Shown here piece after piece: positions 19,586-38,800 of a stretch of 64,000 nt of DNA. The notes beneath the pieces were generated by a model, which saw only the letters and a program-made list of their open reading frames with translations, did no database searches and was not told the DNA's origin. A program made the position numbers and the translations under genes. Every line of letters starts with the position of its first letter. The first letter of the stretch is position 1. Location of the stretch: contig CANRGH010000005.1 in assembly GCA_947630135.1 (NCBI GenBank), forward strand, positions 1 to 64,000, in the 5' to 3' direction. This stretch comes from an uncultured Monoglobus sp. (GTDB lineage Bacteria > Bacillota > Clostridia > Monoglobales > Monoglobaceae).

Positions 19586-20230
19586 TTATTTTTCGGCCGC
19601 AAGCGTTGACGGAATTATGTAGTCAAACACTTCGGGCTCAACGCCGAGAATATCTTTGATCCGTTTCACGGAAAATGCCACATATTCGTCATCGTTAAAA
19701 TCGGGTATTCTCGGAACACGGACATGAAGCTTTGATGCGTCAACGCATTCCCCTATTCTGTACAGATTCTTTGAAAGATTGCGTATACCGACGCCCGTAT
19801 ATTCCTTATATATTTTCATGTCCATATCCTTGACGTCAATGATCCACTCGTCAATATCATCGATCAGAGGCTCAACGCATCTCCACGGAACATTCAATGA
19901 GGTCTCGATCCGCATTTTCCATTCCGGATCGGCTATGCGGCAAACCTCGTGAATAAACGCGGACTGCAAAAGCGGCTCGCCGCCTCCGAACGTTATTCCG
20001 CCTCCGGACATTTTGTAATAAATATCATCCTTTTTCAGCACGTCCAAAAGCTCCTCGGGCGTGTATGAATATCTGGGTATGCCTCCGAATTTGACCACGC
20101 CCTCATGGCAAAAATTGTTTATGCAGTATTTGCAGTGCAGAGGACAATCAAAAAAAGCAACCAAAGTAACAACTCCGCGGCCGTCCGTTCCCATTCTCAA
20201 GCGTGAAACGCTCATAATATCGCCAATCAT
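19586..20230 (-). CDS. Radical SAM protein, activase-like
   Basis: A 214-residue radical SAM enzyme with the cluster motif CPLHCKYC (about residues 29-36), the following glycine-rich motif GGITFGGGEPLLQ and compact length typical of glycyl-radical-enzyme activases such as PflA/NrdG. Unlike many activases it has no extra ferredoxin-like cysteine insert. No glycyl radical enzyme is encoded in the window, so the substrate is probably the product of the overlapping upstream gene or something elsewhere. Its start overlaps the 330-residue protein's stop by 4 bases, showing tight coupling. Coordinates start at ATG 20230; an internal ATG (MSVSRLRMG) six codons later is possible. Confidence 0.85.
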   Translation of the reverse strand: MIGDIMSVSRLRMGTDGRGVVTLVAFFDCPLHCKYCINNFCHEGVVKFGGIPRYSYTPEELLDVLKKDDIYYKMSGGGITFGGGEPLLQSAFIHEVCRIADPEWKMRIETSLNVPWRCVEPLIDDIDEWIIDVKDMDMKIYKEYTGVGIRNLSKNLYRIGECVDASKLHVRVPRIPDFNDDEYVAFSVKRIKDILGVEPEVFDYIIPSTLAAEK

Positions 20231-21219: not shown

Positions 21220-21231
21220 ATCAATCACTCC

Positions 21232-21462
21232 TTACCTGTTTTTTAAAACTTTTTCAAACTGCTTCGGATAATATACTTTGGAAATTAATATGATTATATC
21301 ATAACACATGTGTAATAAAACGTACAGTGCACTGTTAAAATAATAAAAGTTTTCCGAGGCGCCCGCACGTTTCCCGTCTTGTTTTACCGGATTGTCAAAG
21401 TCGGTGTCGGGCGGCACGCTGTTTATATATTCCTCTGTCAAAATATGCCTGTATTTGTCCAC
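21232..21462 (-). pseudogene. Unrecognised coding fragment
   Basis: A 76-codon open frame beginning at a GTG (DKYRHILTEEYINSVPPDTD) and ending with a hydrophobic stretch (YVLLHMCYDIIILISKVYY) and basic tail. There is no ribosome-binding site before it, and the frame continues upstream without a proper start until it runs into the terminator hairpin at 21488-21514. It therefore looks like the 3' end of a gene that has lost its beginning. I see no family. Confidence 0.35.
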
Positions 21463-21486
21463 TTCGGCTTTATATCGTTGAACGCT

Positions 21487-21515
21487 GAAGCCCCGCGGAT
21501 TTTCCGCGGGGCTTT
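21487..21515. terminator. Strong terminator hairpin within the decayed region
   Basis: A 12-bp perfect stem, AAGCCCCGCGGA (21488-21499) with TCCGCGGGGCTT (21503-21514), three-base loop. The left arm resembles the arm after carB (AAAGCCCCGCGGA). It separates the DUF/radical SAM pair from the broken genes to its right and would stop any read-through from the GTPase operon. Confidence 0.8.
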
Positions 21516-21541
21516 CACATTAACATTATTATATTTTGCGA

Positions 21542-21759
21542 TTATACTTCGATCCTTATCCACCAACCGCCCCTGTTTCTAAATCCGTTCCTTTTCATAA
21601 ACGGTTCCAAAAGACGGACGCCATCCTTCGTAAGCTCCGCGCCGTATCGCTCGGTCACATAGTAGTAAAGAAAGGTGCGAATCACCTCATAGGCTCCGGT
21701 TCCGTCCGTGATCGCATGCAAAACATCCATTCGAGATGATAGTCCTTTGCTTTATGCAT
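21542..21759 (-). pseudogene. Fragment resembling an HxxxDG acyltransferase, frameshifted
   Basis: A weak start at 21759 opens MHKAKDYHLEWMFCM and soon hits a stop, while a second frame gives LHAITDGTGAYEVIRTFLYYY and runs to 21542. HAITDG fits the HxxxDG catalytic motif of condensation-domain-like acyltransferases, and the flanking TGA..FL.TL pattern is similar to Firmicutes members of that group. The two frames joined would read through the motif, so I interpret it as a frameshifted, truncated remnant. The match is short; a chance resemblance is possible. Confidence 0.35.
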
Positions 21760-21772
21760 TCCTGTAAATATA

Positions 21773-22743
21773 TTACTCCTGAACATCATCTTTATAGCCG
21801 AAATGTTCCTTAACCTTTTTATATGTTGTTTTATCCGTCAGCGTATATGCTACCAGCGGCACACTTGTCATACCTTTTTCCCAATATCCATCTGTGGGAT
21901 CACTTACAAATTTTTTCCATTTGACTCTAATGAATATTTCTTTTTTCCGATCAAGTTTTGCCTTCGCATCTTCAGAATTCCACGAAGCCGATGTCACCGG
22001 CATGGGTGTGCCGTTTACTTCAACTGTAAATTCAGCCATCGGAACCGCTGTGGCAAGACATTCTCCAATGCCTACAAATCCGCTGCCCGCAATATGACAG
22101 AACACAGTATCCCCTGCCTGAACGTTATACAAAAACCTGCCGCTGCCGCCGATATTAGCCGAAAGAAATCCATATTTCAAAGCGTCCGACCAACTGCGGT
22201 CGGCATATCCAACTGTAAACTCCTGTCCCTTTGTATTTTTGAAAAATTCCTTCTCCTCATCATCTGACCAGCCACCGGCGAGTTCCTTAATATCTGTCGG
22301 ATTCCAAATATCACCTGCCATTTTAAGATAAATTTCAGCGCGATCGGCGATACTCTGCTTTTTAAAATGATCGATCGGTTTAAAACCATAGCGGTCAGCT
22401 ACATTGGTCAGAAACTGCGGGTTGTTATGGTAAGCGTTCCGATTTAGGGCTTGCACCAGAATATTATCACCGGTATATTTCCGCACTTTCTCGGAATACT
22501 TCCTCATATCCGGAAGTAAGTTTGGACCGCGCTTTCCTTCACGCAGTGTCTCTGCATATTTTGCGCGCAGCCAAATTGATATAAACTCCACATCTTCCGT
22601 ATTTACCATTCCGCTGGAATTGTACGAGGACGCACTTTTTATTCTGTTAATGTTATCTTGCCACTGCTGGTTTACCTCAATGCTGTAAACCGACGACCGC
22701 TTAGGATTTTCCTAAGGGTATCTGTTTTGTCAATCTTTTGCAC
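21773..22743 (-). pseudogene. EVE/PUA-like domain protein with frameshift near the start
   Basis: The main frame (21773-22609, 278 codons) has a C-terminal domain with RSWSDALKYGFLSANIGG, GDTVFCHIAGSGFVGIGECL and a final basic strand region, the pattern of EVE/PUA-like modified-base-binding domains found at the C-terminus of many nuclease-associated proteins. It has no ribosome-binding site at its first ATG. Instead AAAGGAGGG at 22751-22759, directly after the phosphoesterase stop, leads into GTG 22743 and MQKIDKTDTLRKILSGRRF, which stops at 22672. The main frame is open upstream to about 22710, so a one-base shift joins them into a protein of about 320 residues. TLRKILSGRRF is reminiscent of DUF262 N-termini, but that is only suggestive. 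A sequencing error is an alternative to a real lesion. Confidence 0.55.
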
Positions 22744-22759: not shown

Positions 22760-23563
22760 TTACTGCAAGGTTTCCAATATTATGAACGTATCCGTAAAAG
22801 TTTTTTCGTTATGTATACCTTTCACAATTACGGAAACTCCGCCTTCTTTTATCTCAAGCGTTATAACATTGCCCTGTTGGGTTTTATTGACGCCGTTTTT
22901 AGTTGACGTCGGACATATGCTGCCGTCGTTGATATACAGATTATTATGTGACGCGTCAAATTCAATATCGGGAGATACATGGGTATGTCCCGATATGAAA
23001 ATAACTTTTTTGTTTTCATCAATTATTTTTTGGAGGCGCTCATTCTGCTCCGCCGCGATATACGAAGTCATATTCGCTGTTCGCTGGGGATTATGCGCAA
23101 TAAGCGGCGGATGACACATAACTATATGGTATTCGGCTTTGCTTTCATTCAGCTTTTTCCGCAAAAAAGCCAATTGCTCTCCTTTGTTTGAGAAGAAAAA
23201 TAATTTTTGGTGATACACGGGATTCAACCCGATCAAGTCGACATTATCATTTATGTATTTGTAAAAACCCCCGCTTTCATCAACAGCGGTTTTATACTCG
23301 GGATTGATCATTGTTTCAAACTTTCTGTAAGCGGTATCATCTCTCGCGGGATTATCATGATTACCGGAAACACAATACACGGGCACAGAAACAAAATACT
23401 CGCTTATCAAATTCGCGGCAATATCATATTGATTTTCCTGCGCACGGTCCGCTATATCTCCGACGATCAAAACAATATCCGAATCCCGCAATTTTGAGAG
23501 AGCATGTTTTAAATTAATTGTTTTATTATATAAATGAAGATCGCTCATAATGCCGATTTTCAC
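22760..23563 (-). CDS. Calcineurin-like metallophosphoesterase
   Basis: A 267-residue cytoplasmic phosphoesterase. All five metal-binding motifs are in order: DLHLY (D and H), GDIADR, GNHDN, the histidine of MCHPP and GHTH. The arrangement is like the Icc/CpdA-type cyclic nucleotide phosphodiesterases and small nucleases of this superfamily, but specificity cannot be predicted. I chose GTG 23563, which has AGGTG five bases upstream and gives MKIGIMSDLHLYN; the longer TTG start has no site. It is the last intact gene of the GTPase operon, 35 bases after the previous gene. Confidence 0.88.
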   Translation of the reverse strand: MKIGIMSDLHLYNKTINLKHALSKLRDSDIVLIVGDIADRAQENQYDIAANLISEYFVSVPVYCVSGNHDNPARDDTAYRKFETMINPEYKTAVDESGGFYKYINDNVDLIGLNPVYHQKLFFFSNKGEQLAFLRKKLNESKAEYHIVMCHPPLIAHNPQRTANMTSYIAAEQNERLQKIIDENKKVIFISGHTHVSPDIEFDASHNNLYINDGSICPTSTKNGVNKTQQGNVITLEIKEGGVSVIVKGIHNEKTFTDTFIILETLQ

Positions 23564-23598
23564 AAGCACACCTCGCAATACATTTCTTTTTATACATC

Positions 23599-24081
23599 TT
23601 AGTCTGTGATCTCATAACGCGTCGTTCCAACGCGGTAAAGACGAAACGGTCCGGTAAAATTGCCGTCTTTATTTATCAGCGAATACAGGATCACCTCGGG
23701 ATCGCTTGTGCCGCCGAACCCGTCCTCGTCTTCCCAATAACGTCCGTCGGGCTGAACCGTCCAATACATCACATACTCATCTTTGTATCTTTCAAAACAG
23801 CTTCCGTATTCAGCATACGGTTTCAAATCAAAATCACTGCTCAGATATTTTTTTATTTCCTGTTCATTCTCAATTCCCGGAAAGTCATAAATTCTATGCT
23901 TTTCATCCACTATCACCTTAGACGCGCCGGTTTCCTCATTCATAAACAAAACCGGTGTGTGTCTTTCAATATGCCATTTACTGAACGGATAACATATTTT
24001 CTCTTCTTCCGAAGATAAGGCTGCGTTATTTTTACTCCATAAATCTAAAATATTTTTTATTTTCGAAAAAAACACCGCCAT
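23599..24081 (-). CDS. Hypothetical protein of the GTPase operon
   Basis: A 160-residue acidic, soluble protein with no recognised domain. It is rich in aromatic residues in the C-terminal half (YVMYWTVQPDGRYWEDEDGFGG). No membrane segment. GAGGAG lies immediately before the ATG. It sits between the active M48 peptidase gene and the phosphoesterase gene with short gaps, so it most likely belongs to the same transcript. It might be an immunity-like or adaptor protein, but nothing in the sequence shows that. Confidence 0.65.
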   Translation of the reverse strand: MAVFFSKIKNILDLWSKNNAALSSEEEKICYPFSKWHIERHTPVLFMNEETGASKVIVDEKHRIYDFPGIENEQEIKKYLSSDFDLKPYAEYGSCFERYKDEYVMYWTVQPDGRYWEDEDGFGGTSDPEVILYSLINKDGNFTGPFRLYRVGTTRYEITD

Positions 24082-24141
24082 CTCTCCTCATATCCGCGCA
24101 AGGCATAAAGTGATTTGTTTTTATGATTATTTGCTTTTTAA

Positions 24142-24972
24142 TCAGACACTTTCTGCCGCGCTTATCAATTTTTCATATTGCTCCGTTTTTGACCATTCAT
24201 CCGCTTTTTTTATTCTTTCAATGGTCCACGGATGATCTATCATCACCGTCTGCATTATATAAATAAGCTTTCCTACAACATTTCCGTTTATAGTGCTAAA
24301 ATCATCATACTGGTCAAGTATGCTCTCCAGTGAAAAGTCAATATACTTTCCGCAGTCGCTTCTTCCCATGATGCGTTGACAGAACGAATATAATGCTTCG
24401 CTGCCGCCCGCGGCTATCATTCCGGCTCTGTCGGCAGTTAATTCGGATTTTCTCTGCCAATCGTAGAGCGCAAACATCAGACTGCTTGTTACTAAATGAG
24501 AGTATACTTTAAACACCCCTTCAAGACCGCTCTTGAGAAGCTGCGCAAGCATATGATATTTAAGATGTCCGCTCTTGATATGACCGAGCTCATGGCCGAG
24601 AATATAGAGAAGCTCATCATCGTCAACATCCTGAATGCAAGAAGAATTAATAACAATAAACGTATCGTTTATGCCGCTCGTGAATGCATTATAATCATAT
24701 TCGAGCTTGATAAAAAGCTGTGGTTCGACATGCATATTAAGTCGTTTTAACGCAATCTCATAAATATCGTATATATGAGGCGCTGTTTCCTTGGTGACGC
24801 GGCAGCAGTTGCCAACCGTTTCAAGATATGAAGAGCTTTTTATCGAAAAATCGACAGCCGCACCCACCAATTTGTCAACAAACGGAACTTTTCTGAGTAC
24901 CTCAAGAGCCGCTTTGTCCAATGGGTGTTCATATTCTGTCGGTTTTAAACCGTTCGGATCATAGTTAATCAT
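24142..24972 (-). CDS. M48-family zinc metallopeptidase (active-site copy)
   Basis: A 276-residue protein with the M48 zinc motif HELGH (LLYILGHELGHIKSGHL, about residues 136-152) and the downstream SELTADRAGM motif whose acidic residue completes the site. Unlike HtpX-type members it lacks clear multiple membrane helices; a moderately hydrophobic segment (about 160-185) may touch the membrane. It is the third of three tandem homologues that share the opening pattern Y-x2-P-x-DKAAL...KVP and the RVT...AP.IYDIY block. Only this copy keeps the catalytic residues. Its ATG overlaps the preceding stop by 4 bases with GGAGGAG upstream. Confidence 0.9.
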   Translation of the reverse strand: MINYDPNGLKPTEYEHPLDKAALEVLRKVPFVDKLVGAAVDFSIKSSSYLETVGNCCRVTKETAPHIYDIYEIALKRLNMHVEPQLFIKLEYDYNAFTSGINDTFIVINSSCIQDVDDDELLYILGHELGHIKSGHLKYHMLAQLLKSGLEGVFKVYSHLVTSSLMFALYDWQRKSELTADRAGMIAAGGSEALYSFCQRIMGRSDCGKYIDFSLESILDQYDDFSTINGNVVGKLIYIMQTVMIDHPWTIERIKKADEWSKTEQYEKLISAAESV

Positions 24973-25757
24973 AAAAGCTCCTCCTTTACTTTGCTGTACA
25001 AGCCGGATTCTACCCAGTTAAACAACTGCACCGCTCTATCGGCATTCCACGGAGCATCATTATCCAGCGTCTTGGCGCTTCGCGATACCTGTGAGAAGCC
25101 GCCCATACTGCGAAATTCCTCGCTTTGAACCATACGCTCCTCGATCGTTCGCGCGTTCATACCGGGCGCTGTTTCGGGAATATTTCCGTAATCTATCAGT
25201 TTCATAACGAGCTCGTAATCATCGCTGTATATCATTCTTGCCCTGTCATATGTATAGTATCTCTGTTTTGACCAGTAATACAGCGGAGCCGCAAGAAGCG
25301 CTTTCGGAACAGGCAAAGCGCCGCCATATGAATTGACCACCATCTGGAGCATTGACATGACCCCGTGACCCGCTTTTATCCCGGCAATATCTGAAACAAG
25401 GAAAACTTCCAATTCTCTTTCGCTCATTTCCTCAAAAGCAGTCGAACTAATCAGGATTTTAGGGGTCTCCACCCCGAAAACGTTAGTTTTTATATAATAA
25501 TTCCTTGTAACATATATATCGGGTATTTTTTTTACATCAAAGCGCTCGCATATTTTTCGGTAGATATCATATACCTTTGGAGCGTTTTTCTCGGTTATTT
25601 TCAGCATCGACGAGAAAAGCATAAAGTCATAAAACCTTTCTATGCCGTTCTTCGACACAAATTTCATCAATTTCCCTATCCCCGGCACCTTGTTAATGCG
25701 GTCCAAAGCGGCCTTATCCTCGGGATAAAGATATGATTCAACAGGTATTGTGCTCAT
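24969..25757 (-). CDS. M48-like protein without catalytic motif (paralogue 2)
   Basis: A 262-residue homologue of the next gene. It starts MSTIPVESYLYPEDKAALD and has the same middle and C-terminal layout, but the position of HELGH reads SDIAG (EVFLVSDIAGIKAGHG) and the downstream motif is TYDRARM instead of TADRAGM. Zinc binding and proteolysis are therefore not expected; it may be a regulatory or scaffold subunit of the active copy. ATG 25757 has AAGGATG at correct spacing; the ATG at 25766 overlaps that site. It is coupled to the active copy by a 4-base overlap. Confidence 0.82.
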   Translation of the reverse strand: MSTIPVESYLYPEDKAALDRINKVPGIGKLMKFVSKNGIERFYDFMLFSSMLKITEKNAPKVYDIYRKICERFDVKKIPDIYVTRNYYIKTNVFGVETPKILISSTAFEEMSERELEVFLVSDIAGIKAGHGVMSMLQMVVNSYGGALPVPKALLAAPLYYWSKQRYYTYDRARMIYSDDYELVMKLIDYGNIPETAPGMNARTIEERMVQSEEFRSMGGFSQVSRSAKTLDNDAPWNADRAVQLFNWVESGLYSKVKEELL

Positions 25758-25806
25758 AATAATCATCCTTTCTATGTTATGGAAACAAGCTCAGCTTGTC
25801 CTTTAA

Positions 25807-26613
25807 TTAAGTGTGAGCCGCAATAACGCGGCCGTATTCACCGGAATTATACCAGTTGAACAGCTCGACAAAACGCTCGTTTGCCCATGACCTTCTTCCG
25901 CTAAGCAAGGTATTGTTAACGTGTCCGACATTCTCGGGTAGCGACTTCTTTCTCTCGGTTTCAAGCGTGATCTGCTCCGCCCGGTCGTTAATATCAATAT
26001 CATTGATATATCTGAAAGGAATACCGGACAGCAGACCAATATATTTCATAGCCGCCTCATAGTCCTGACAGGCCAGCAATCCGCCGCGGTCTATTGTCAT
26101 TTGCGATTTTCTACGCCACTGTCCCAGCGGATACAAAAGAGCTTTTCCGGCAATCGGAATAGCATTCGTAAAATTAACAAGCGAATCGGACAGCTTGAAC
26201 ATTTTCAGCATGCCGCCCTTCAACATTGTTATTCCCTGTCCGAAAAGAAATAAAATCATCTCGTCGGAAAATTTTTTAATAATAATATCGGAAATCAACA
26301 CCATCGGGACATCGATCCCGGCGACTTCAATGCGCGGTTTATAAGACCTCGTGCAGAATAAGTCAATGTCGCCGTCATAATCAAGAACGGTTTTGGCTGT
26401 ATCCATAAGCTTAAAAATTCTCGGCGCATTATCCGGCGTCAGCCTGACACAGCTGCCCAGATATTCAATTCTGTCATTATATTTGCTTTCAAATTTTTCC
26501 ATCCATTCGCCTAATTTCCCGGCCGGAAGAACATTTTCGACAGCTTTAAAGGCCTTCTCATCCTCGCTGTGGCGATATTCCGAAACCTCTAATCCTTTTA
26601 AAGCAACCGGCAT
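25807..26613 (-). CDS. M48-like protein without catalytic motif (paralogue 1)
   Basis: A 268-residue homologue of the two following genes, recognised by YRHSEDEKAFKAV at the start, the YLGSCVRLTPDNAPRIF block and the RRKSQMTIDRGGLLA segment that corresponds to RKSELTADRAGM of the active copy. The HELGH position is GQGIT (LFLFGQGITMLKGG), so it is also predicted to be inactive. It is the most diverged of the three. The gene begins 3 bases after the stop of the tail-anchored protein gene, with a G-rich ribosome-binding site. Confidence 0.8.
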   Translation of the reverse strand: MPVALKGLEVSEYRHSEDEKAFKAVENVLPAGKLGEWMEKFESKYNDRIEYLGSCVRLTPDNAPRIFKLMDTAKTVLDYDGDIDLFCTRSYKPRIEVAGIDVPMVLISDIIIKKFSDEMILFLFGQGITMLKGGMLKMFKLSDSLVNFTNAIPIAGKALLYPLGQWRRKSQMTIDRGGLLACQDYEAAMKYIGLLSGIPFRYINDIDINDRAEQITLETERKKSLPENVGHVNNTLLSGRRSWANERFVELFNWYNSGEYGRVIAAHT

Positions 26614-26616
26614 TTG

Positions 26617-27612
26617 TTAACCCCCCTTTTTTATCTTAAATATCAAAACTATCAGTACTATCACCAGCACGGCAATTATTGCGGCGGCAGCGCGAAGAAA
26701 ACTTTTGCTTTTTGAAAGTTCTTTTGCAAGTCTGCGTATTTCATTTTCGGCCGCATAAACCTTTTTTTTCAATTCGTTTGCCATCATTTCCGATGCTTTA
26801 AGAGTTTCATTCAACTTATCATTACTTTTCTGAGCGTCTTCAACGGTCGGTTTTTTTTTCGCGGTGATTTCTGTGAAAGCTTTGCCGACATTGGAATTTA
26901 TGTTCGCATCTTGTACATTTTCCGGTTTTAACACATTTCCTTTAGCGCCGCTGTCCGCCGTTTTAGCGGATCGAACCGCGTCCCCGAAACTGTTTTTGCT
27001 ATTCATTATAAGATTTTTGTACTCATTGTAGGAAATTAAAACGTTGGGTTTCAACAGCTTGTTAACTTTATTTTGCTCACAGAAGTAAGCCCAGTCCGCG
27101 TCAAGCGCGACAGCGCTAACTTGTTTGTCAAAATTCACTTTATAGCTTGACACGTTCATTTTTCCGGCGTTTACGCATTCCTCTATCAGACGCTCAAGCA
27201 AATCAAAATTAACGGTATATCCCGCTGTGTTGCGGCAAAGCTCCAGCATGTCACACATCATACGTGCGGCCGCGTTATAGTATTTCAAAAAACCCTCGGC
27301 AAGATACTTCAATTCAAGAGCGTCGCCGTCACCTCCGCTGAAAGCGCAGTTCATATATACCTTTCTGCCAAGCTCATCCAACTGCTTTTGGGGATTTGTG
27401 TAATCAATGCTCTTAAAAACAACATAGTTCATGTCCGTGGCGGCTCGTCCCGCGATAAACGTCGCTCCGCTGTGTGTCCACAAATTCGAAATGATCTCGG
27501 GAATAACTCTGCGGCTGCTGTGAATGACCTCCCGTTTTTCGCGGTCGACATATGTCATCTGGTATCCGACAGCCGAACCGTTGTAGGAACAATATAAATA
27601 AACTTTGATCAT
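26617..27612 (-). CDS. Tail-anchored protein with LYCSYN N-terminal domain and coiled coil
   Basis: A 331-residue protein of unknown family. Residues 1 to about 200 form a domain that starts IKVYLYCSYNGSAVGYQ and is related to the N-terminus of the upstream gene's product. A polar linker follows, then a predicted coiled coil (about 255-300, NDKLNETLKASEMMANELKKK) and a single C-terminal membrane helix (FLRAAAAIIAVLVIVLIVLI) with a KIKKGG tail, so the bulk faces the cytoplasm. ATGA overlap with the upstream gene and an AAAGGA site support the start. It may recruit the operon's soluble GTPases or peptidases to the membrane. Confidence 0.72.
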   Translation of the reverse strand: MIKVYLYCSYNGSAVGYQMTYVDREKREVIHSSRRVIPEIISNLWTHSGATFIAGRAATDMNYVVFKSIDYTNPQKQLDELGRKVYMNCAFSGGDGDALELKYLAEGFLKYYNAAARMMCDMLELCRNTAGYTVNFDLLERLIEECVNAGKMNVSSYKVNFDKQVSAVALDADWAYFCEQNKVNKLLKPNVLISYNEYKNLIMNSKNSFGDAVRSAKTADSGAKGNVLKPENVQDANINSNVGKAFTEITAKKKPTVEDAQKSNDKLNETLKASEMMANELKKKVYAAENEIRRLAKELSKSKSFLRAAAAIIAVLVIVLIVLIFKIKKGG

Positions 27613-28418
27613 GCGTAAAATTCCTTTCTTTTTCTCTTTTTTCTTCTAATGTGTTTGATCACCTTGTAACCGCATAATAATCCGCCGAAGGCCACAGAGC
27701 CGACGAGTATTTCATTTCGATGATTATCGGCGAAATCGTGCACGTCATCCAGCAAACCGTTTTTCTCATTCGATTTTACGCCCGCGGCCTTGCTATGATG
27801 CGCTCGGCCGCTTCCAAACATTTCATTAAAATACTTCATATCATGTTCCGGTATTACAAACTCATAAGTTTTTGAAATTTTCCTTTCGGACAGTAATTCA
27901 AATGCCGCGGAAAGCTCTTCATCCGTGCAGCCGTAAGGCCCGCTCACAAAGTGCGCCGTTTTGGTTTCCTCAAACTTCGCAAACCTTTTCGCCGACTCCT
28001 CCGAAAGTTCATTCAGCGAATTTATATCTATCAAAAACGGCGCGTTTCCGTCTGACACAGACAGCGAATTTACAATAATGTCCGTAAAACGGTCAAAATC
28101 CGTGTACGCGAAATAGATCAGCGCGCATAGACTGTCAAGATCGCCGCTGTCCGCTCTGACTCCAAAGTTAACGTACCATATGCGCCCCGGAGTGTCGAGG
28201 GATTTTTCTTCGTCAATCGCTTTTATGTTTTTAAGAACCATATAATAGCTTGACAAATCACATCCGAATGCCGAATTTGCTCCCGCGACAGTCATCAGTT
28301 TTCCCACAACGCCGTCGTCGGAATATATCTCCCTTTGAGTTCCGCTTGACAAATCAGCCTCAACACGGCGAAATCCCGTTGGCGATAAATTATAAGAACA
28401 ATATAAATCAAATTTCAT
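27609..28418 (-). CDS. LYCSYN-domain protein with C-terminal basic membrane segment
   Basis: A 269-residue relative of the following gene: MKFDLYCSYNLSPTGFRR parallels IKVYLYCSYNGSAVGYQ, and later blocks (YYMVLKNI, GRIWYVNFG) align too. The C-terminus has one short hydrophobic segment (EILVGSVAFGGLLCGYKVI) and a strongly basic end (RRKKRKRKEF), suggesting peripheral or tail-anchored membrane attachment. I start it at ATG 28418 with GGAGATG at good spacing; an ATG at 28442 has no site. I cannot name the family; the GTPase-associated context resembles computationally described GTPase conflict systems, which is inference. Confidence 0.7.
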   Translation of the reverse strand: MKFDLYCSYNLSPTGFRRVEADLSSGTQREIYSDDGVVGKLMTVAGANSAFGCDLSSYYMVLKNIKAIDEEKSLDTPGRIWYVNFGVRADSGDLDSLCALIYFAYTDFDRFTDIIVNSLSVSDGNAPFLIDINSLNELSEESAKRFAKFEETKTAHFVSGPYGCTDEELSAAFELLSERKISKTYEFVIPEHDMKYFNEMFGSGRAHHSKAAGVKSNEKNGLLDDVHDFADNHRNEILVGSVAFGGLLCGYKVIKHIRRKKRKRKEFYA

Positions 28419-28431
28419 ATTATCATCTCCA

Positions 28432-29514
28432 TTAAATATCATACGGATTTTGAATTATTTTATAACCGTCGCCGGATTTTTTTAATCCCTTGATTGCAAT
28501 ATCATACGATTTGGAAAAAATCTTGTTCCTTAAAAACCATACGCCGATCAGAGTAACCACTAAATTGAAACAAGCAGAAACAGCAGTCAGCAGTATCTTT
28601 ATCGAAGTATTTAATCCATTGTTTTTCGTATTTTTCTTCACCATGTTTCCCACGAAAGCAAGTATGTATAAAATCGGCTGTTCACAATACTTCGGCGAGA
28701 AATAACATGGTTTTTCATAAAATTTATAATACGTCACTTCCGGTCTGTTGCTTAATCCTTTCTCGTTCGAGTTCCTGATTAAACATATATTGTCGTTTTC
28801 ATCCCTCTTAAAATCGTCAAACACAATGGTCCCCATAGTGAGAATAGGTGTAACGGCAATGGTTATTCTGTCTTTTTTGGTGCCGATTTTTAAATAATCG
28901 ATCAGCTTTCCGTAACTGTCCTCGATCTTTTCTGTAACTTCATCCATCCTGTTCTGATAATAGTATTTTTCACATTTCAGCGGGGCAAACAGCAAAAGTT
29001 TGGGCCCATTTTCGCCAAAACCGGATTTCTGCAATAAATTTATAAGCGTACCCACATTGTTAAACACTTGAGAAATCGCCGGTTCTACCTCCATAAGATA
29101 TACTGTGTCAATAGCCACTATTATCACGTCCGCATTTTGGAGCAGGCGGGTCGTTTTGGGATCATGTTGTATGAAAGCCTCACCCCTGACATCATGGAAT
29201 ATAAGATTTGTGATCTTTTTAAGCTTTCTTTTTTGCTGAAGTTCAAGAGAAAACTCATATGTATCATCTTTAGAAGTGGGATTATCGTCCATGGGAAATC
29301 TTTTAGCATTAATATATTCCTGATTTTGATATATCCCTCTTAGTTCAAGCTGCTTATCCTCTATATGTTTTCTCGTTTTATTAATCGCGCTAAGCCTAAA
29401 AGCCGTATGATCACGAATGTCGCTGAAGTTATCGATCATCGAGGCAAGAGTACTTGATTTTCCTGCGCGGCGGGCGCCGTACATTACTACATTAATTACT
29501 CTTTTGTTTTGCAT
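28432..29514 (-). CDS. P-loop GTPase-like protein, paralogue A
   Basis: A 360-residue protein with Walker A GARRAGKSS near residue 13 and a Walker B-like HDVRGE. Family blocks shared with the two upstream paralogues are AIDTVYLME, FAPLKCEKYYY, TPILTMG, YCEQPILYILAF and the terminal DGYKI. No NKxD is seen; KCEKY may take its place. A hydrophobic stretch near residues 305-330 (LTAVSACFNLVVTLIGVWFL) probably crosses the membrane and is absent or weaker in the other two copies. The layout recalls TRAFAC-type double-GTPase families, an assignment that needs a profile search. AGGAGG precedes the ATG; the gene overlaps the upstream one by 23 bases. Confidence 0.8.
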   Translation of the reverse strand: MQNKRVINVVMYGARRAGKSSTLASMIDNFSDIRDHTAFRLSAINKTRKHIEDKQLELRGIYQNQEYINAKRFPMDDNPTSKDDTYEFSLELQQKRKLKKITNLIFHDVRGEAFIQHDPKTTRLLQNADVIIVAIDTVYLMEVEPAISQVFNNVGTLINLLQKSGFGENGPKLLLFAPLKCEKYYYQNRMDEVTEKIEDSYGKLIDYLKIGTKKDRITIAVTPILTMGTIVFDDFKRDENDNICLIRNSNEKGLSNRPEVTYYKFYEKPCYFSPKYCEQPILYILAFVGNMVKKNTKNNGLNTSIKILLTAVSACFNLVVTLIGVWFLRNKIFSKSYDIAIKGLKKSGDGYKIIQNPYDI

Positions 29515-30673
29515 TACCGAATCCTCCTATGTTTAAATGGTCATTAAGTATTTTATAACCATCGCCGGATGTCTTAATTCTTCCCGCGACTTTACTGAGC
29601 TCATGTTCTAAAGATATTCCGTCAGGAGCAATCTTAAGCGCGCTGAGCATGCTGTTTAAGATGCCTTTGTTCCAACCGCTTTTTTCGCTAACTTTAAGGA
29701 TATATGCGAAAACATATATAAGCGGCTGGTCGCAAAATCTCGGTGTATATCTGGCGTAATTACTTCCGATAATTTTCTTTATTTTTTCCGGGTAGTTGTT
29801 ATATTGGCCGGTATAGTGAAATTTCTCCAATTCGCCCGGATTATTACAGTTTTCTTTATTATCAAAATTAAAAAGCTCTATGCCGCCAATGGTCAGTATC
29901 GGCGTAATTGCCGTTGTGCAGTTGCTTTTAAAATAATCTGATTGTGTCAGCGAATCAATAAGCTTTTTATAACCGTTTATCACGGTTTCGTCAACCATCG
30001 TCACCTCATCGGGCAGGCCATAACCGTCGTCTCTTGACATTTGGCCGCGATAATAATACTTTTCGCACTTTATCGGCACAAATAAAACCATTCTGTCTTT
30101 TATATCATCAGTTGTCATTTCGCTTGTGATAAGAAGTTCAATAATATCGGGCTTGTTCATCTGTCCGTGATATTTTCCAAAACGGTTATTTTTTTCGTAC
30201 TGCTCCATAAGACAAGGCGTGTCTATCGCAATCATTATCACATGGCTTTTTTTGATCAATGTTTTGACAAGTTCTCGGTTACCGCTCGTATCCTCGGGTG
30301 AATTGGTCAAAAATTCTCCGGGAAAATCAATAAAATTGACCGCTATTTTTGTGTATTGCGAGCCGATGTTAAGCCCGAATTTATACTCCTTTTTATCAAA
30401 GGTCGGCGCTTGGTCAGCTTTAAAAAACCTGTTTGGATCTATTTGCGTGAAATAATCCATAGTCAAATTATTGCTGATACCATCAAGCTTTGTCTCAAGA
30501 ATAGGATCTAAATTCAGCACAAGGCTCGTTCCGTTAAACGTATTGTTTATATTTTTGTACATAGACGACAAAAGCGTTGATTTTCCGCAGCGCTGAGCAC
30601 CTATCATAAGAACATTGATATTGTGTTCCCCAATTTGTTTCCCAAAATTAAATATCTTATCAATAATCTCCAT
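29492..30673 (-). CDS. P-loop GTPase-like protein, paralogue B
   Basis: A 393-residue paralogue with Walker A GAQRCGKST (about residues 23-31), Walker B FIDFPGEF, AIDTPCLME, FVPIKCEKYYY, TPILTIG, FCDQPLIYVFAY and SGDGYKI near the C-terminus. It has an insertion after KCEKYYY (DDGYGLPDEV) not found in the others. The IDxPGE motif is close to a classical G3 motif (DxxG). It is probably cytoplasmic. AGGAGAT lies before the ATG. Position in the middle of the operon, between two paralogues, argues for a shared complex. Confidence 0.82.
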   Translation of the reverse strand: MEIIDKIFNFGKQIGEHNINVLMIGAQRCGKSTLLSSMYKNINNTFNGTSLVLNLDPILETKLDGISNNLTMDYFTQIDPNRFFKADQAPTFDKKEYKFGLNIGSQYTKIAVNFIDFPGEFLTNSPEDTSGNRELVKTLIKKSHVIMIAIDTPCLMEQYEKNNRFGKYHGQMNKPDIIELLITSEMTTDDIKDRMVLFVPIKCEKYYYRGQMSRDDGYGLPDEVTMVDETVINGYKKLIDSLTQSDYFKSNCTTAITPILTIGGIELFNFDNKENCNNPGELEKFHYTGQYNNYPEKIKKIIGSNYARYTPRFCDQPLIYVFAYILKVSEKSGWNKGILNSMLSALKIAPDGISLEHELSKVAGRIKTSGDGYKILNDHLNIGGFGNAKQKSN

Positions 30674-30745
30674 ATTATATTATCTCCTTTTCATATTATC
30701 GTTTTGTATAATTGTTTAATTTAACTCTGCGGAAATTTCAGATAA

Positions 30746-31852
30746 TTAAACCAGATATCCTCCGCATATGATCCTGTATCCGTCTTTGTCCATGACTTTT
30801 TTTCTCGAGAACTTGCTTATTGCCATAAGCAATCCCGGGTCATCGGGAAATAGTTTAAAGAGCGCCGCCATTTTTGCGAAAAATCCCGTCGAAGATGCCG
30901 CTCCGGTTGATGACTCCCTGTGATAGAGCTTTGTTATAAAAGAAAGCAGGTAACATAGCGGCTGTTCACAGTACATTGGTTTATACTCGGCATTTTTTTT
31001 GCTATATATATATTCGGGCGACATCGGTATTTTCTCGCATTCCCCGTTGGGCCATACCATTTCCGTCGTTATTATTTCGCCGTTTTCGTCGGTTTTAAAG
31101 CCTCTGAATATAATTTCACCAACGGTAAATATAGGAGTCACGACCGCGGCCACATGGGTTTTCAGCTGCGCGCCGCCAAGAAATTCAATAAGTTCCGAAT
31201 AAGCCTTAATGACAGCGTCTGTCACCTCATCCATTCTTCCCTCTTTATTATATTTTTCGCATTTCAAAGGCACAAACAGCACCAACTTGTCGCTTTCAAG
31301 ATTGCTAAAAGCGTCCTTTATAAACTTTGTAACAATCGAAACAGTATTTTTTGCCTCGTTATACCTGCCGTTTTCTTCCATAAGATGCGGTGTGTCTATC
31401 GCGATAATGATCGCGTTTGAATTGTCAACAAACTCTCTCACCTTCTCAGTCTCTGATATAATAAACTCTCCCGGATAGTCTTTCACCACAAGGTCGATCC
31501 TGACATTTTTTCCTTTCACGCCGAATTGGAAATTATAGTCGCGCTCCTCCATGCTTGCTTGTATTCCGGCAGTAGTCACAACATCCGATGTACCGGATTC
31601 GCTGAACATTTTCTGAAGCTCATCTTTTTTCTTCAATATCGCGTCCTCAGTCATGTCAAACTCACTTTCACCCTTAAATGTAGTGAGATACAGCTCTGAC
31701 GTAGAATTCACCTCATTCAAATTATTGAACATCGATGTAAGAATACTTGTCTTTCCAACACCTCTGGCACCCATCATGCAAACCTGCATTTTGGCGTTTT
31801 CCTGCTTTGAGCTGCCGCTGATGAATTGTTTTATTTTATTAAATATAGGCAT
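30746..31852 (-). CDS. P-loop GTPase-like protein, paralogue C
   Basis: A 368-residue paralogue with Walker A GARGVGKTS, Walker B-like KDYPGEF, AIDTPHLME, FVPLKCEKY, TPIFTVG, YCEQPLCYLLSF and DGYRI. A slightly amphipathic N-terminus (MPIFNKIKQFIS) and a charged segment precede the P-loop. It starts 30 bases after the dynamin-like gene, with AAGGAGG at ideal distance from the ATG. It is the best-conserved of the three in G1 and G3 and is a good representative for structure prediction. Confidence 0.82.
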   Translation of the reverse strand: MPIFNKIKQFISGSSKQENAKMQVCMMGARGVGKTSILTSMFNNLNEVNSTSELYLTTFKGESEFDMTEDAILKKKDELQKMFSESGTSDVVTTAGIQASMEERDYNFQFGVKGKNVRIDLVVKDYPGEFIISETEKVREFVDNSNAIIIAIDTPHLMEENGRYNEAKNTVSIVTKFIKDAFSNLESDKLVLFVPLKCEKYNKEGRMDEVTDAVIKAYSELIEFLGGAQLKTHVAAVVTPIFTVGEIIFRGFKTDENGEIITTEMVWPNGECEKIPMSPEYIYSKKNAEYKPMYCEQPLCYLLSFITKLYHRESSTGAASSTGFFAKMAALFKLFPDDPGLLMAISKFSRKKVMDKDGYRIICGGYLV

Positions 31853-31882
31853 TGATCCATCCTCCTTCCGCTAGGTCTGATT

Positions 31883-34261
31883 TTATTTGATGCTCATAAT
31901 AAAGTTCGCACGTTTATTATATTCGTTAAGACTTTCCAGACAATTGGTCCAGTTTCTAAAATTATTCTCTTTCTGCGCATTTTCCGCGATTTTGTCATAC
32001 CATATATTTCCCACGTTTTCACTGTATAATTCAATCCACTCTTCTCTGACACCATCGGCTCTCGTAATTCGGTCAAAGAACTCGTCAGACACCGCGAACA
32101 TTGCCTCGTTAGGCGAGATATAAAACGATTTCATGGCAAACTGAAGATCATTGTTAACATTATTAACAGCGACCATCAGATGATAATATATCGCATCAAA
32201 CATGTCGCCGCTGAAATCCACGTTGGCGAGCTGGGCCGGATTTGCTGTGCTTATCGAATAAAGCGCAGTGCGCACCTTATTCATCATTGTTCCTCTAACC
32301 GTGAACGAAAAACTATACAGGAAGTCAAAAGCGATGATCAGCTGCTTATAATCGCCCATCGCAAGTTGGTTTTCCTTAAACTCCTTAAGCCATTCAAACG
32401 TTTCCCCGCTGTCGGGTTCCGGAATGATCTTGCCCAACAAGCCTTTATCAATAAGAATTTTCGTGATCTTATTCTTAAATTCATTGATAAGTTCGTCGAT
32501 CGACGCGTCGACCTCTATAAACCGCCTTGTGATCTCGGATCTTATCACATCAAGAAAATGACTGTAAATCTCGGTTATTGCCGCAGATCCGTGATTGTTA
32601 TAATATTCCTTGATCGTCTCCTTATCCGGCACAATGGCCAGCATATTGTTCGTGTCGACGATCGCGTCGATCTTCTCTTTGAGAATATCGCAGATCTCGC
32701 CCTTATTGTCGCCCATATCCTTATTCATTTTTCTTAACGCGGGCGTCAATTCGCCGTCGTATGTTTCGTTGATCAAATTATATATAAACGCGGGCCCCTT
32801 TCCGCTTCCGCTTACGCTGTTTTTGATAATATCCGAAACAATGCGACAAATATTTCTGTAAGCGTCATAAGCAGCCTCGGCGTCATCCTTAATGTCCTTG
32901 ACTCTCATATCATCTATCAAGGGCAGATTAATCGTTATCTCGTTGAGCATCGGTATCAGATATTTTTCACGCACATCATCCTCATTTGAGGCGTCAACTA
33001 TTACCCTCATAAAACTGTTGTCTTTCGCTATCTCGTCGAGTTCTTTCTTTATGTACTCGCAGTAATTATTCTGTGTTTCATCACCGTTGACTTTGTTAAT
33101 AAGCATTGACATCCATTTTTCTATATTTCGTTTTTTGAATTCTGTGGTGACTCTGGACAACATATTCGTTTCACCGGCACTAAGTTTCTTGCCTCTCTCC
33201 TGCCTCGGCCTTATAAAGTAGATGATCGAATCGCTTTTATCTCCTATGACCTCGTACATCTTTTTCTCGTCACCCAATGCGGTATCTCCGAGTCCGACCG
33301 TGTCAATAAACCTTATTTTTCCCGCGTCATCGTAATTGAATTTCTTCTTTATACGCGCCTGTTTTACAGCTATATATTTGTAAAATTTTTTATAATCAGA
33401 CTCTTCTTTTCCTTTTTGCATTTTTCCGTTATTCTGCGCAACGAATGTCATAATTTCATCCTCGTCCGTAAGCGTTATCGGCTCACTGCCGATATATTTC
33501 TTCCATTCGCTGTAATTGTCCACATATCTTTCTCTAAAATTATTTTTAAGAGAATTCTTATGAGTGTCTCCAACATCTAAACCGGAAACCTTGTTATAAT
33601 AATCCGCGATCCCGTTAAGCGACATTATACGGCTGTCGGGGCCGGATATCTCTTTAACGTATTCATTTATCTCCTCAAGCAACTCGTATTCGCTTTTAAA
33701 CGTGAAAATAACCTCAACTCCTTTACCTACGGCGCCGCTGTTCTCGATTGTGGAGCTTGCGCCCGTGCAGTGATCTCCGCTGAATGAGGGGATACATCTG
33801 TTGTCGAGACCCGTAAGTGATTGGAGCAGCCTGCTCTTTCCCGCGCCCGCCTCGCCGACAACCGAAATGTTTATATAATCCTTGTCGAAACGCCGCTCAA
33901 GCTCACGGTATTTTTCAAGCAGACTGTCGGCTTTTTCCGTAAACGAGTCGGTTGAAAGGGCGCGCAATCCGACAGCCATCTCGGGATTATCCTTGAAAAG
34001 CTTGTAATACTTAGAATTTTTGTTAGGCTCTCCCTTTTCATCCAGCACATCGACCTTAAGCCGATCAAGTTCCTCGACTTTTTCGATCGCTTCCGTGATG
34101 GCCTTAATTTTATTCCGGATCTGCGGCAGCAGCGTTTCTTTACGAGTTTTGATTATCTTATCGATTTTCTCGGTTATTGTTTTCTCCAATTCAGTTCTCG
34201 TGCCCGCAGAACTTGCGCCGTTGACTGTTTCATTTACACTCGTTATCGTTTTCTCATCCAT
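31883..34261 (-). CDS. Dynamin-like large GTPase
   Basis: A 792-residue protein with an N-terminal helical region (about 20-130), a GTPase domain (about 130-430) and a long helical C-terminal half. G1 is GEAGAGKSR, the probable G2 threonine is in HCTGASSTIE, G3 is DTVGLGDT and G4 is INKVNGDE. The helix-GTPase-helix layout is that of bacterial dynamin-like proteins, which bend or fuse membranes, and some of which protect against phage or membrane damage. No clear membrane helix is present, so it would bind lipid peripherally or via partners. AGGAGAG precedes the ATG. It follows the DUF445 gene by 110 bases and leads the three small GTPases. Confidence 0.8.
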   Translation of the reverse strand: MDEKTITSVNETVNGASSAGTRTELEKTITEKIDKIIKTRKETLLPQIRNKIKAITEAIEKVEELDRLKVDVLDEKGEPNKNSKYYKLFKDNPEMAVGLRALSTDSFTEKADSLLEKYRELERRFDKDYINISVVGEAGAGKSRLLQSLTGLDNRCIPSFSGDHCTGASSTIENSGAVGKGVEVIFTFKSEYELLEEINEYVKEISGPDSRIMSLNGIADYYNKVSGLDVGDTHKNSLKNNFRERYVDNYSEWKKYIGSEPITLTDEDEIMTFVAQNNGKMQKGKEESDYKKFYKYIAVKQARIKKKFNYDDAGKIRFIDTVGLGDTALGDEKKMYEVIGDKSDSIIYFIRPRQERGKKLSAGETNMLSRVTTEFKKRNIEKWMSMLINKVNGDETQNNYCEYIKKELDEIAKDNSFMRVIVDASNEDDVREKYLIPMLNEITINLPLIDDMRVKDIKDDAEAAYDAYRNICRIVSDIIKNSVSGSGKGPAFIYNLINETYDGELTPALRKMNKDMGDNKGEICDILKEKIDAIVDTNNMLAIVPDKETIKEYYNNHGSAAITEIYSHFLDVIRSEITRRFIEVDASIDELINEFKNKITKILIDKGLLGKIIPEPDSGETFEWLKEFKENQLAMGDYKQLIIAFDFLYSFSFTVRGTMMNKVRTALYSISTANPAQLANVDFSGDMFDAIYYHLMVAVNNVNNDLQFAMKSFYISPNEAMFAVSDEFFDRITRADGVREEWIELYSENVGNIWYDKIAENAQKENNFRNWTNCLESLNEYNKRANFIMSIK

Positions 34262-34371
34262 AATATTCTCTCCTTCATAATATATTAATCAGCCGTTTAT
34301 ACGGCCAAAAACTCGGTTTTTACATATTTTTATTGATCCGATCATATTTGTGTTTCGTCAGCGGCGGCCAA

Positions 34372-35271
34372 CTATAACAGCAGCACGTTGACAAAACCCA
34401 GCAGAAATCCCAGCAGCGCTCCGAGATAAACTATAGCGCGAAGCTCTTTTTTCATAATGCCGAAAATCATTTTCTCGAGCTCCGCCGCATCAAATTCCGC
34501 GACCTTTTTATAAACAATTTCCGCAATGTCGATGGCGCTTATGATCTTTTTAATATTTTCGCCGACAATTTTTTTATAAAGCTCTATAATCTTTTCTATA
34601 ATTTCCGGTATCTTATCTCTGTATTTATCATATATGTCACAGAGTCTTGTCCGCATAATGTTATCCCCGAATTTCAGGAGCTCGGACTCTATAATGCCGG
34701 GAGCCTCTTCCGTAATTTTTTGATTGATAATCGAGCCAAGTTTGTCTTCGATCTGCGCCGCTAAATCACCGCCAATCATGCTTCCCATCATTCCGCCGCC
34801 AAGTTTGCCTGTTATTCCGTCTATCGCCTTCTTAACTATCTCGGTGCCAATATCGGCTTCTAATATTTTGCTCATTATAAAATTGGAAACAGACCTTGCG
34901 AGCCCGTAGACAGACATTTCGATTTTATCCGGCTCCGCAAACTGACATGCGAACTCCTTGACGGTCCGCGTATCGGTTTCAAACTGCTTTATCGTCTCCT
35001 CAAGTTTCTGATAAATCGTGTTAACAGTACTTTCGGAAACCACAGTGCTTTTGATAGTTTCCGCATCTAAAAGCTGAGTGCTGATCACGTTGCCGATTGA
35101 ACGCGCTACTCTGTCTTTTTGCTGCGGGATCAGTCCGGGTGTAAACGGGACCCTGAATTTACCGATATATATTGGGTTTCTCGGCCGAAACAACATTTTA
35201 ATCGCTATATCATTTGTTATATATCCTATTATTCCACCCAAAATCGGCGCTACTAAAATTCCAAACTGCAT
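34372..35271 (-). CDS. DUF445 (YheB-like) membrane protein
   Basis: A 299-residue protein with a hydrophobic segment at each end (ILVAPILGGIIGYITNDIAIKM and VYLGALLGFLLGFVNVLLL) and a long amphipathic helical middle. The N-terminal signature GYITNDIAIKMLFRP followed by PFTPGLIPQQKDRVARSIG identifies DUF445. The middle may form a membrane-spanning or periplasm-facing rod. Family function is unknown; a relative in Bacillus is spore-associated. It is the first gene of the GTPase operon, so it could be the membrane receptor of the system. AGAGGTAAG lies before the ATG. Confidence 0.88.
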   Translation of the reverse strand: MQFGILVAPILGGIIGYITNDIAIKMLFRPRNPIYIGKFRVPFTPGLIPQQKDRVARSIGNVISTQLLDAETIKSTVVSESTVNTIYQKLEETIKQFETDTRTVKEFACQFAEPDKIEMSVYGLARSVSNFIMSKILEADIGTEIVKKAIDGITGKLGGGMMGSMIGGDLAAQIEDKLGSIINQKITEEAPGIIESELLKFGDNIMRTRLCDIYDKYRDKIPEIIEKIIELYKKIVGENIKKIISAIDIAEIVYKKVAEFDAAELEKMIFGIMKKELRAIVYLGALLGFLLGFVNVLLL

Positions 35272-35862: not shown

Positions 35863-38800
35863 TTAAATTTCAAGCGACGCCCAATCCATAACCGGACGCA
35901 GAGACGTCCAAATCTCATAGCCGCCGTCACCGCGCTCGCTGTAGTGCGAGTTGGTGGCCTCCTGGACATCGGCGTAGTACCACTTGGTCTTGTCGCTGTT
36001 GTCGGGCCATACTATCATGTCGTCAAGCATGTGATCCGCCGAGGGCTTTCTCTCAAGAACCCTGTTGACAAGAGCCATAGCCTCGGCTCTCGTGATGCTT
36101 TGATCGGGCTTGAATGTTCCGTCCTCATAGCCGTTGATCCAGCCGCGCTCGGCCGCTCTGTTAATATGCTCGCTCGCCCAATGCTCGCCGGTGTCACTGA
36201 ATTTATCGGGGCCGTCATATGCGGATGAGTCAAAGTTGGCCGCGATCACCGCGAACTCGGCGCGGGTAATCGGATCGTCGCCGCGGAAGGTTCCGTCCTC
36301 ATAGCCGTGAACTATATCGGCCGCCGCCATAGTTGAAACCGCGGTGTTGAACCATTTGCCGACCGAAACGTCGCTGAACTTGTTGCCCTTGGTCATATAT
36401 CTGTCGCGCGAGCTTTCGGACAGCATTCTGAAGAATATTGTCGCGACCTCGGCTCTTGTGATAGTTCCCTCGGGCTGAACGGTGCCGTCCTCATATCCTA
36501 CTATATATGCGTAATGGTCGTCGTAATTCAAAGTAGGCAGATCATCGGGAGCCTTTCCTCCCGAACCGCCGCCTCCGTTCGGCGGAGCGACCACAACGCT
36601 CTCATCATAGGAGTTAACAACTTTGTAACCGCCGGAGATCGACTCATACTTTGGAGCATAATGGTTGACAGCTTCTTCGATCACCGTGTAATCGGTTCCG
36701 GTTTTCAGATTTGAGAATGTGTGCTGCCAATTATTTTCGGCCGAAAGCACGCATTGGTCAACCGCGTTGCCGTTTTGCATGAGTTTTATTGTTATGGACG
36801 TGGGTCTCTCGCCTCGGCTGTTGTTGTCATCATCCCACTCTTTCACTACGCGGACCGAAGCGGTGCCGAAGCCTCCGCCGCCACCGCCGCCTCCGCTGCC
36901 GCCACTGCCGCCGCCCGGCTTTTTAGTCGGGGACGGAGACGGGGACTCCGAAGCTGCGGGCTCCGGCGTGCTTGTCGCAGGAGCGTCCGTCGGTTCTGCG
37001 GTGGGCTCGCTTGTCGCAGGAGCATCTGTCGGCTCCGCGGTGGGTGTGCTTGTCGCGGGAGCGTCCGTCGGTTCCGCGGTGGGCTCGCTTGTCGGCGAGG
37101 GAGACGGCTGAGGCTGATATTTCGACCACTGCGCCACAAACACAATTCCGTCGTCGGGCATTGTGAAGCTGCTGTTTACGCCGCCGTATCTGTAGACGGG
37201 GCCGTCGGTTCCTTTCACTGTCCAGCCGTCGAAAACGTAGCCTTCGCGGACGGGCTCGCGGGCGGGTATTTCGTATACCTCGCCGCGCTCTCCGGTGATC
37301 GCGTCGGGCATATCAGTCACGGTTGCGGCCGCGCCGTCGTCAACGCCGTCGTCAAATATCGCCTGAACATAATCAGCTGTGCCGTCGCCGTTCTCATCCT
37401 TCGCCCATACCGCGTACAAATTCATATATCCGCTCGCGGGCGGGCTGTCGATCCTTGTATGATCCTCCAAAATTCCCGCGTTTTCAGCGTCAAATCTCGT
37501 GACAACCACATTATTCGCCTTTTTGCTCCAGCCGAGGAAGGCCGCGCCTTCCTTGACGAGCTCAGGCTCACCGTCGTTGCCGAGGACGGGAACATTGTCG
37601 GTGCCGTCAATAACATACTTGTTATCATCAAACGGAACAACGCCGTAAGTCGCGTGGTTCTCGCGATAGATCACGCCGTATTCGTCGGGAGGAACTATCG
37701 CTTCCCAAACCGCGTAGAGCACATCCGGGCCGGCCGACTTCCTGAACGCGCTTTCGCCGATCGGATCGCCGTCCGGATCGTTGAGGCTCCAGCCGAGGAA
37801 GTTGTAGCCCTCTCTTACGGGCTCGCTCGGCTTGATGTCAACATCGGTTCCGTCAATATAGCTGTTTGTGTCAGCCTCGGGCATGCCCGAAACCTCCTCG
37901 CGGCCCGCGTTTGAATTATAGAACACCTGATAGTAATCGGCTGTTCCGTCCTCAACCACGGTGTGCGTGCCGTCGGTTATATCAATTCCCCATACCGCGA
38001 ACAACGTCATAACCGAGCTGTTGTCTCCAAGATCAAGCGGAAGGATCTCACCCGCGGGCAAAATTCTCTCCGAAAGCTCATCCTGGGTCATGATTATCTG
38101 CTCGTGCGCGTTCTTCGACCAGCCGAGGAATACCGCGCCTTCTCTCGTCATTTCGCCTCTGTCCATAAGCTGAACGCCGCCGCCTATCGGATAGGTCTTT
38201 TCGTCAATCGGAACGCTGTCGTTTCCGCCGTTGGCGTTATAAACGACTCCGTATTCCGCAATAGGAATTTTCTTCCATACCGCGTAGACCGTAACATCCG
38301 CTCCCGCGATCGTGACGCTTTCCTTGACAACGCCGTCGGGAACTTCAGTAAAGATCATCGGGCTGCCGCTTTCATCGGTGACGGCGATCTTGTCGTCGCA
38401 CCAGCCGAGGAACTCACATCCCGTCATAGTCGGCGCGGCCTCTCTGTCAAGGGTGACAACGTCGCCGTCAAGCAGGCCGGTCACGGGCTCGGGAACCGAT
38501 CCGTCGCCGCCGTTGGGGTCATATGTCAGCGTGTAAGTCTTTTCCTCGTAATCCGGCACGCTGTTGCCATTCTCATCCGCGGCCCACAGCGCGTATACCG
38601 TTATGTCGCTGTCCGCGAACGTGAGGTAAGCGCTGTCAGCGGAAAGTTCCGCAAGCTCCGCCGCGGAAGCCACGAGCTCGCTGTGGGGCGTTTTGCCCCA
38701 TCCGACCAAAACGGCTCCGCTGCGCATCACGCGCTGTCTGCCTTCATCAATCGAGATCAGTTCCGCGGTCTGGCCGCTGAGTCTGTAGCGGGTGTAATCC

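Follow-up and report, generated by a model that had tools for sequence, protein, structure and literature searches.

A bacterial dynamin-like GTPase (DYN), a GTPase of a second, DO-GTPase2-like family and a protein with a LYCSYN (LYC) domain appear, from gene order and profile matches, to be a recurring three-gene core that keeps strict order across six phyla, and its presence in so many phyla makes it look like a real, unnamed membrane-linked alarm or repair machine. To this core, peptidase genes seem to have been added in sets that differ between lineages: M48 with DUF445, vWA with subtilase and LRR proteins, or TPR-CHAT. No description of the dynamin, GTPase and LYCSYN combination as a system was found in 5.39 million open papers, in agreement with the initial annotation, which knew of no characterised system of such composition.

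Twelve-gene operon in the window

Twelve open reading frames occupy positions 22760-35271 of the window, the whole 64,000-nucleotide stretch of DNA that was analysed. As the initial annotation had it, all share one strand (the minus strand), and neighbours in the ORF listing overlap or stand no more than 110 bp apart. In order of transcription they encode a DUF445 membrane protein, DYN, GTPases A, B and C, LYC1 and LYC2, three M48 homologues (M48-1, M48-2 and M48-3), a 160-aa protein (U160) and a calcineurin-like metallophosphoesterase. Its assignments for the two end genes were borne out: the DUF445 gene (34372-35271, −) matches PF04286 with an E-value of 4e-40 and encodes two TM segments by prediction, one N-terminal and one C-terminal, and the phosphoesterase gene (22760-23578, −) matches PF00149 with 1.4e-17. 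A same-place orthologue of the DUF445 protein, 42% identical, was found in locus L020.

The last two genes are optional extras, recurring in some loci only. Related systems in L053, L054 and L056 have homologues of U160 (23599-24081, −; family unassigned) on their downstream side, while L020 has a different gene there; phosphoesterase homologues were found in L024, L028 and L032, all M48-type loci. Since U160 and the phosphoesterase recur in only some loci, it is improbable that the core acts through the phosphoesterase as its output.

GC content is ~41% over a block from ~19.6 to 35.9 kb versus 53% and 51% in the flanks, composition being judged on the window alone, and this suggests that the block was acquired. 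A radical SAM gene and genes for proteins of 333 aa and 278 aa at 19586-22609 (−) have the low GC of the operon, and may be part of the same acquired block. The next gene upstream of DUF445, in the same orientation, is a single 6,053-aa ORF (35863-54024, −) for a giant surface protein with many repeats, C-terminal ones being SLH-like. A tRNA-Arg gene (54715-54791, −) lies just past the start of this ORF, ~19 kb from the operon.

Distribution and gene order

GTPase A was not found in any of 59 further genomes from within the class, among them 11 of the 11 congeners searched. A profile of the three GTPases matched strongly in 2 of about 390 genomes of the class. One of these (G392) has the whole ten-gene set of DUF445, DYN, three GTPases (GTP), two LYC and three M48 genes; the other (G313) has DYN-GTP-LYC, then a second GTPase-like gene and vWA and subtilase genes. 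Scanning genomes with the window dynamin sequence alone gave no matches, because this dynamin is divergent. With the DYN profile there was no further strong match (E below 1e-30) among 397 genomes of the phylum, indicating that the system is rare. Occurrence is sporadic on several counts: congeners without GTPase A, few positive members of the class, a GC-poor island, and copies on cyanobacterial plasmids.

A wider profile scan yielded 79 loci from 84,980 species genomes, in Bacillota, Bacteroidota, Cyanobacteriota, Actinomycetota, Synergistota and Pseudomonadota; it rests on a single conserved GTPase motif, so that the sample is biased and its counts are not prevalence. Component profiles were iterated and then mapped on all ORFs of the loci. 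DYN was just upstream of GTP in 69/80 loci (median gap 13 bp) and GTP was followed by LYC in 65/80 (median gap 11 bp), core genes usually being ~10-15 bp apart.

Clostridial genomes repeat the ten-gene set, DUF445 through M48, in the same order and with orthologues position by position, so the window operon is not a chance arrangement. At the clostridial M48 loci, every GTP1, GTP2, GTP3, M48-1, M48-2 and M48-3 has its best match in the copy at the same position elsewhere, down to ~30% identity, and the same mostly holds for LYC1 and LYC2. We infer that such position-wise orthology is more in keeping with a fixed hetero-oligomer than with recent duplication. The initial annotation had named two outcomes that would undo the idea of one system, homologues that do not co-occur and small GTPases from unrelated families; homologues do stand together in conserved order elsewhere, and GTPases A, B and C are of one family.

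Components of the core

The 792-aa DYN protein (31883-34261, −) matches Pfam Dynamin_N weakly (1e-3). Its AlphaFold (AF2) model, with pLDDT 87, was matched by Foldseek to SynDLP (9e-13), BDLP (8e-12) and also IniA and mitofusin, at a probability of 1.0. A G domain of the dynamin superfamily (G1-G3) with a helical bundle or stalk was recognised from invariant residues (A9), the AF2 model, Foldseek and motifs, and the P-loop, CTG and DxxG are retained in 69/80 DYN homologues. The product of gene 2 is therefore modelled as having a dynamin fold, in line with its first reading as a dynamin-like GTPase.

GTPases A (30746-31852, −), B (29492-30673, −) and C (28432-29514, −) are paralogues, ~31% identical, and are orthologous to GTP1, GTP2 and GTP3, respectively, of other triad loci. 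The three P-loop paralogues had been recognised at the outset by the motifs AIDTxxLME, KCEKY and DGYKI, all of which are common to them if the third is written DGY[KR]I. Against a gathering threshold of 27 bits for PF19993 (DO-GTPase2), A scores 29.8 and C 36.3; B, at 18.3, is below the cut-off and is placed by the shared motifs. A Nostoc homologue reaches 35.9 bits. The glutamate after Walker B, the TRAFAC criterion of DO-GTPase2, is present in A, B and C, as DYPGE, DFPGE and DVRGE. GTPase C has a hydrophobic C-terminal segment (hydropathy 2.31 near residue 307). The P-loop is intact in every GTPase of M48-type loci. In the second GTPase-like protein of vWA-S8 loci, GTP' (e.g. in L041, L046, L047 and L054), the P-loop and KC motif are both absent, in 16/16 cases, and GTP' is probably a pseudo-GTPase.

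LYC1 (27609-28442, −) and LYC2 (26617-27612, −) have no Pfam match except the coiled coil of LYC2, and a Pfam search of 62 LYC proteins gave no match. The LYC profile found 85 homologues. The tail anchor initially ascribed to both is clear in LYC2, whose predicted C-terminal TM segment has a hydropathy of 3.2 near residue 309; in LYC1 it is not clear. A C-terminal TM segment of LYC was predicted in 21/30 cases in M48 loci, 19/40 in core-only loci and 0/15 in vWA-S8 loci, where TM segments sit in the vWA proteins instead. Clostridial LYC aligns with LYC of cyanobacteria and others at an hhalign probability of 98.8. One 520-aa protein (L028:11178-12740) has two LYC domains fused.

In the AF2 model of LYC1 (pLDDT 85), an alpha/beta domain whose strands and helices run bb(b)-a-bbb-aa, an order that the longin fold follows, leads into a long C-terminal helix. 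Foldseek matched this model best to the Lst4 longin domain and to the FLCN complex. Among longin/roadblock GTPase regulators (Lst4-FLCN, MglB), the strand/helix order bb-a-bbb-aa of the LYC model is alike, but E-values of 0.05-0.15 and low TM-scores against Lst4-FLCN do not demonstrate homology. Given these weak values, a longin-like GTPase platform is a lead from modelling and not a result. A PDB sequence search with the LYC profile gave nothing useful, with no longin among the matches. The GAP1-N domain was considered as another identity for LYCSYN and rejected, hhalign probabilities against four and then ten GAP1-N2 proteins being below 1 (0.3-0.6).

Peptidases and locus variants

Three M48-like proteins had been noted, with a single active peptidase among them, and both points hold. 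M48-3 (24142-24972, −) has HELGH and matches PF01435 with 2.5e-18, placing it in the M48 family, while genes 8 and 9, for M48-1 (25807-26613, −) and M48-2 (24969-25766, −), are M48 homologues by homology and orthology without HExxH, and presumed catalytically dead. The order in clostridial loci is dead, dead, active, with HExxH retained in M48-3 orthologues and one HExxH copy per triad. No TM segments were predicted in the M48 proteins, sole active copy included, so they are predicted to be cytosolic. A PDB sequence search with the M48 profile gave nothing useful. DUF445 was present in 9/19 M48-type loci versus 0/66 others, a p-value of 2e-7 that is too small because related loci are not independent.

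Clostridial loci of the M48 type (the window, L022, L024, L025, L027, L028 and L032, with L023 cut by a contig end) have three GTP genes and usually two LYC and three M48 genes. In Bacteroidota and one Synergistota locus, the M48 type has two GTP genes together with LYC and M48, and in some of these loci GTP-LYC occurs a second time. The vWA-S8 type of Clostridia reads DYN-GTP-LYC-GTP'-vWA-subtilase, often then a gene for a zinc-ribbon/BspA-LRR protein. Just upstream of vWA-S8 systems, Ser/Thr protein kinases were noted at L048:4073-6865 and L057:5620-7530, one with a NACHT match. A CHAT type occurs in Nonomuraea, where two TPR-CHAT genes are directly upstream; a third CHAT label, on a Stanieria plasmid, is less certain, the CHAT gene being ~9 kb off. 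Many core-only loci are in cyanobacteria and Selenomonadaceae, and some adjoin housekeeping genes. With no attached peptidase recognised in 46/85 loci (some of them cut by contig ends), proteolysis is not obligatory. TM segments are frequent in LYC, DUF445 and vWA proteins.

GTPase-centric (GAP1) conflict systems are marked by effectors that vary strongly even among near relatives. Here, in a sample of loci that are not very closely related, accessory types cluster on the DYN tree, with 10 changes against 32 in shuffles, which argues against a rapid exchange of outputs.

Relation to known systems

DO-GTPases of PF19993 were described in GTPase-centric predicted conflict systems, with a GAP1 partner (Kaur et al. 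2020, PMC7159879). Those systems share with the present loci the DO-GTPase2 Pfam GTPase, the GE after Walker B, paralogous GTPase copies, a GTPase gene followed by that of an adaptor, sometimes with a C-terminal TM segment, and peptidase outputs. They differ in that GAP1-N2, GAP1-M and GAP1-C are absent here, where a dynamin is a regular partner. In the genome of the window, GAP1-N2 was not found and GAP1-M and GAP1-C gave only 13.5 bits, under the cut-off and away from the operon (the search covered N2, M and C), and a known GAP1 system was on these three domains rejected. Neither dynamin nor M48 appears in the main text of PMC7159879, nor dynamin in that of its 2021 sequel (PMC8195603). We count the cassette among GTPase-centred multi-component systems, as a variant, and see a real possibility that it forms a separate class.

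The dynamin fold and G-motifs of gene 2 are common to SynDLP, BDLP, IniA, DynA and LeoABC. Known bacterial dynamin-like proteins work alone or as dynamin pairs; unlike these five, the one dynamin here keeps company with GTPases of another family, with a LYCSYN protein and with peptidases.

OMA1 cleaves OPA1, and the window M48 proteins differ from HtpX and OMA1 in having no predicted TM segments. The mitochondrial OMA1-OPA1 axis couples an M48 peptidase with a dynamin-family GTPase under membrane stress (PMC8027119). The likeness is one of logic only, with no evidence of common descent of the circuits, and here M48-3 is predicted soluble, with two dead partner copies.

Proposed function and alternatives

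We give about an even chance to the cassette being a GTP-driven machine at the membrane, for surveillance or repair, whose output is proteolytic. DYN would assemble on, or be recruited to, a disturbed cytoplasmic membrane, the trigger being perhaps phage infection or envelope damage. The LYCSYN proteins would serve as the membrane platform, binding the switch GTPases and governing which nucleotide state they are in, and GTPase assembly would be relayed to the M48 set, in which the two dead subunits might hold or position the single active M48 until triggered. DUF445 may help to anchor the M48 version of the machine. The M48 substrate would likely be a machine component or a damaged membrane protein, by a logic like that of OMA1 on OPA1. 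Gene order, orthology, the LYC fusion, the dynamin fold, intact P-loops, varied peptidases on the same core, the frequent TM segments of LYC, DUF445 and vWA proteins and the sporadic occurrence, all read from sequences and models, speak for such a machine; the 46/85 loci without a peptidase, M48 without TM segments and the weak LYCSYN fold match (best E 0.05) speak against it. Of the initial annotation's reading, membrane GTPases that switch on a protease remain the best account of the gene set, but the defence part is not supported.

More tentatively, the cassette could be a distinct class of membrane surveillance, with a core of dynamin, DO-GTPase2-like switch and longin-like tail-anchored adaptor, and exchangeable peptidase outputs, among them an M48 complex under pseudo-peptidase control; in its logic it would be a bacterial parallel both to OMA1-OPA1 and to Rag/FLCN-type longin GTPase regulation. 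If the cassette is borne out as a system, bacterial dynamins would gain dedicated partners and an output, a pseudo-peptidase-controlled protease would be open to testing, and GTPase-centred predicted conflict systems would extend beyond the GAP1 type.

A role in envelope homeostasis, with membrane repair or quality control like that of IniA or DynA, M48 as a regulated HtpX/OMA1-like protease and no part in defence, is a credible alternative that we nonetheless lean against. It would account for the coupling of M48 with DUF445 (with the overstated p-value given above), the nearness of the dynamin fold to SynDLP, BDLP and IniA, the stable composition within clades and the housekeeping genes flanking core-only loci; yet the system is rare and sporadic for a housekeeping role, and plasmid carriage and island-like GC also tell against one.

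Somewhat unlikely is an anti-phage or conflict system that would detect infection at the membrane and respond by GTPase assembly, with death or arrest of the cell brought about by the peptidase. The GTPases do fall in PF19993, a family named for predicted conflict systems (PMC7159879), peptidase outputs and a TM adaptor parallel GTPase-centred conflict systems, B. subtilis DynA delays phage lysis (PMC8844932), and the patchy distribution, GC-poor island and plasmid copies favour this reading. The initial annotation had likewise named defence, beside membrane surveillance and stress, as a possible role, and had suggested a look for defence islands. Against this, PADLOC gave no convincing system match at the operon, only weak P-loop or single phosphoesterase matches, and 110 Bacillota flank proteins were not enriched in known defence genes relative to 106 random clostridial proteins, both samples being small; matches were mainly kinase-type in the flanks, and Jet, AbiE and DrmD in the random regions. 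A defence-island context was rejected on this comparison. Phage carriage was rejected too, since no relative was found in 2.9 million viral contigs and no phage record turned up. Accessory types, moreover, are stable within tree clades rather than quickly swapped.

Improbable, though with some points in its favour, is a role in the assembly of surface proteins or vesicles, in which the GTPase module, from the cytoplasm, would power the secretion, sorting or processing of proteins of the cell surface. The SLH-type surface protein of 6,053 aa is directly upstream in the window, vWA-S8 loci encode TM vWA, TM subtilase and zinc-ribbon/BspA-LRR proteins, and toxin release, potentially in vesicles, has been associated with the LeoABC bacterial dynamins (PMC4159319). 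However, giant surface proteins are not recurrent neighbours in other M48 loci, and the M48 proteins are predicted cytosolic. That unrelated genes merely stand side by side is scarcely conceivable, for although genes 11 and 12 are only partly conserved, most of 80 loci, from six phyla, show the core genes in the same order.

Atypical dynamin homologues

In two MAG loci, L068 (Bacillota) and L086 (Hyphomicrobiales), the dynamins group among cyanobacterial ones, a placement due to transfer or misbinning. On the Pseudanabaena plasmid pPg_02 (L110) the dynamin homologue is split; this plasmid has toxin-antitoxin genes, and BREX-6 genes ~10 kb off.
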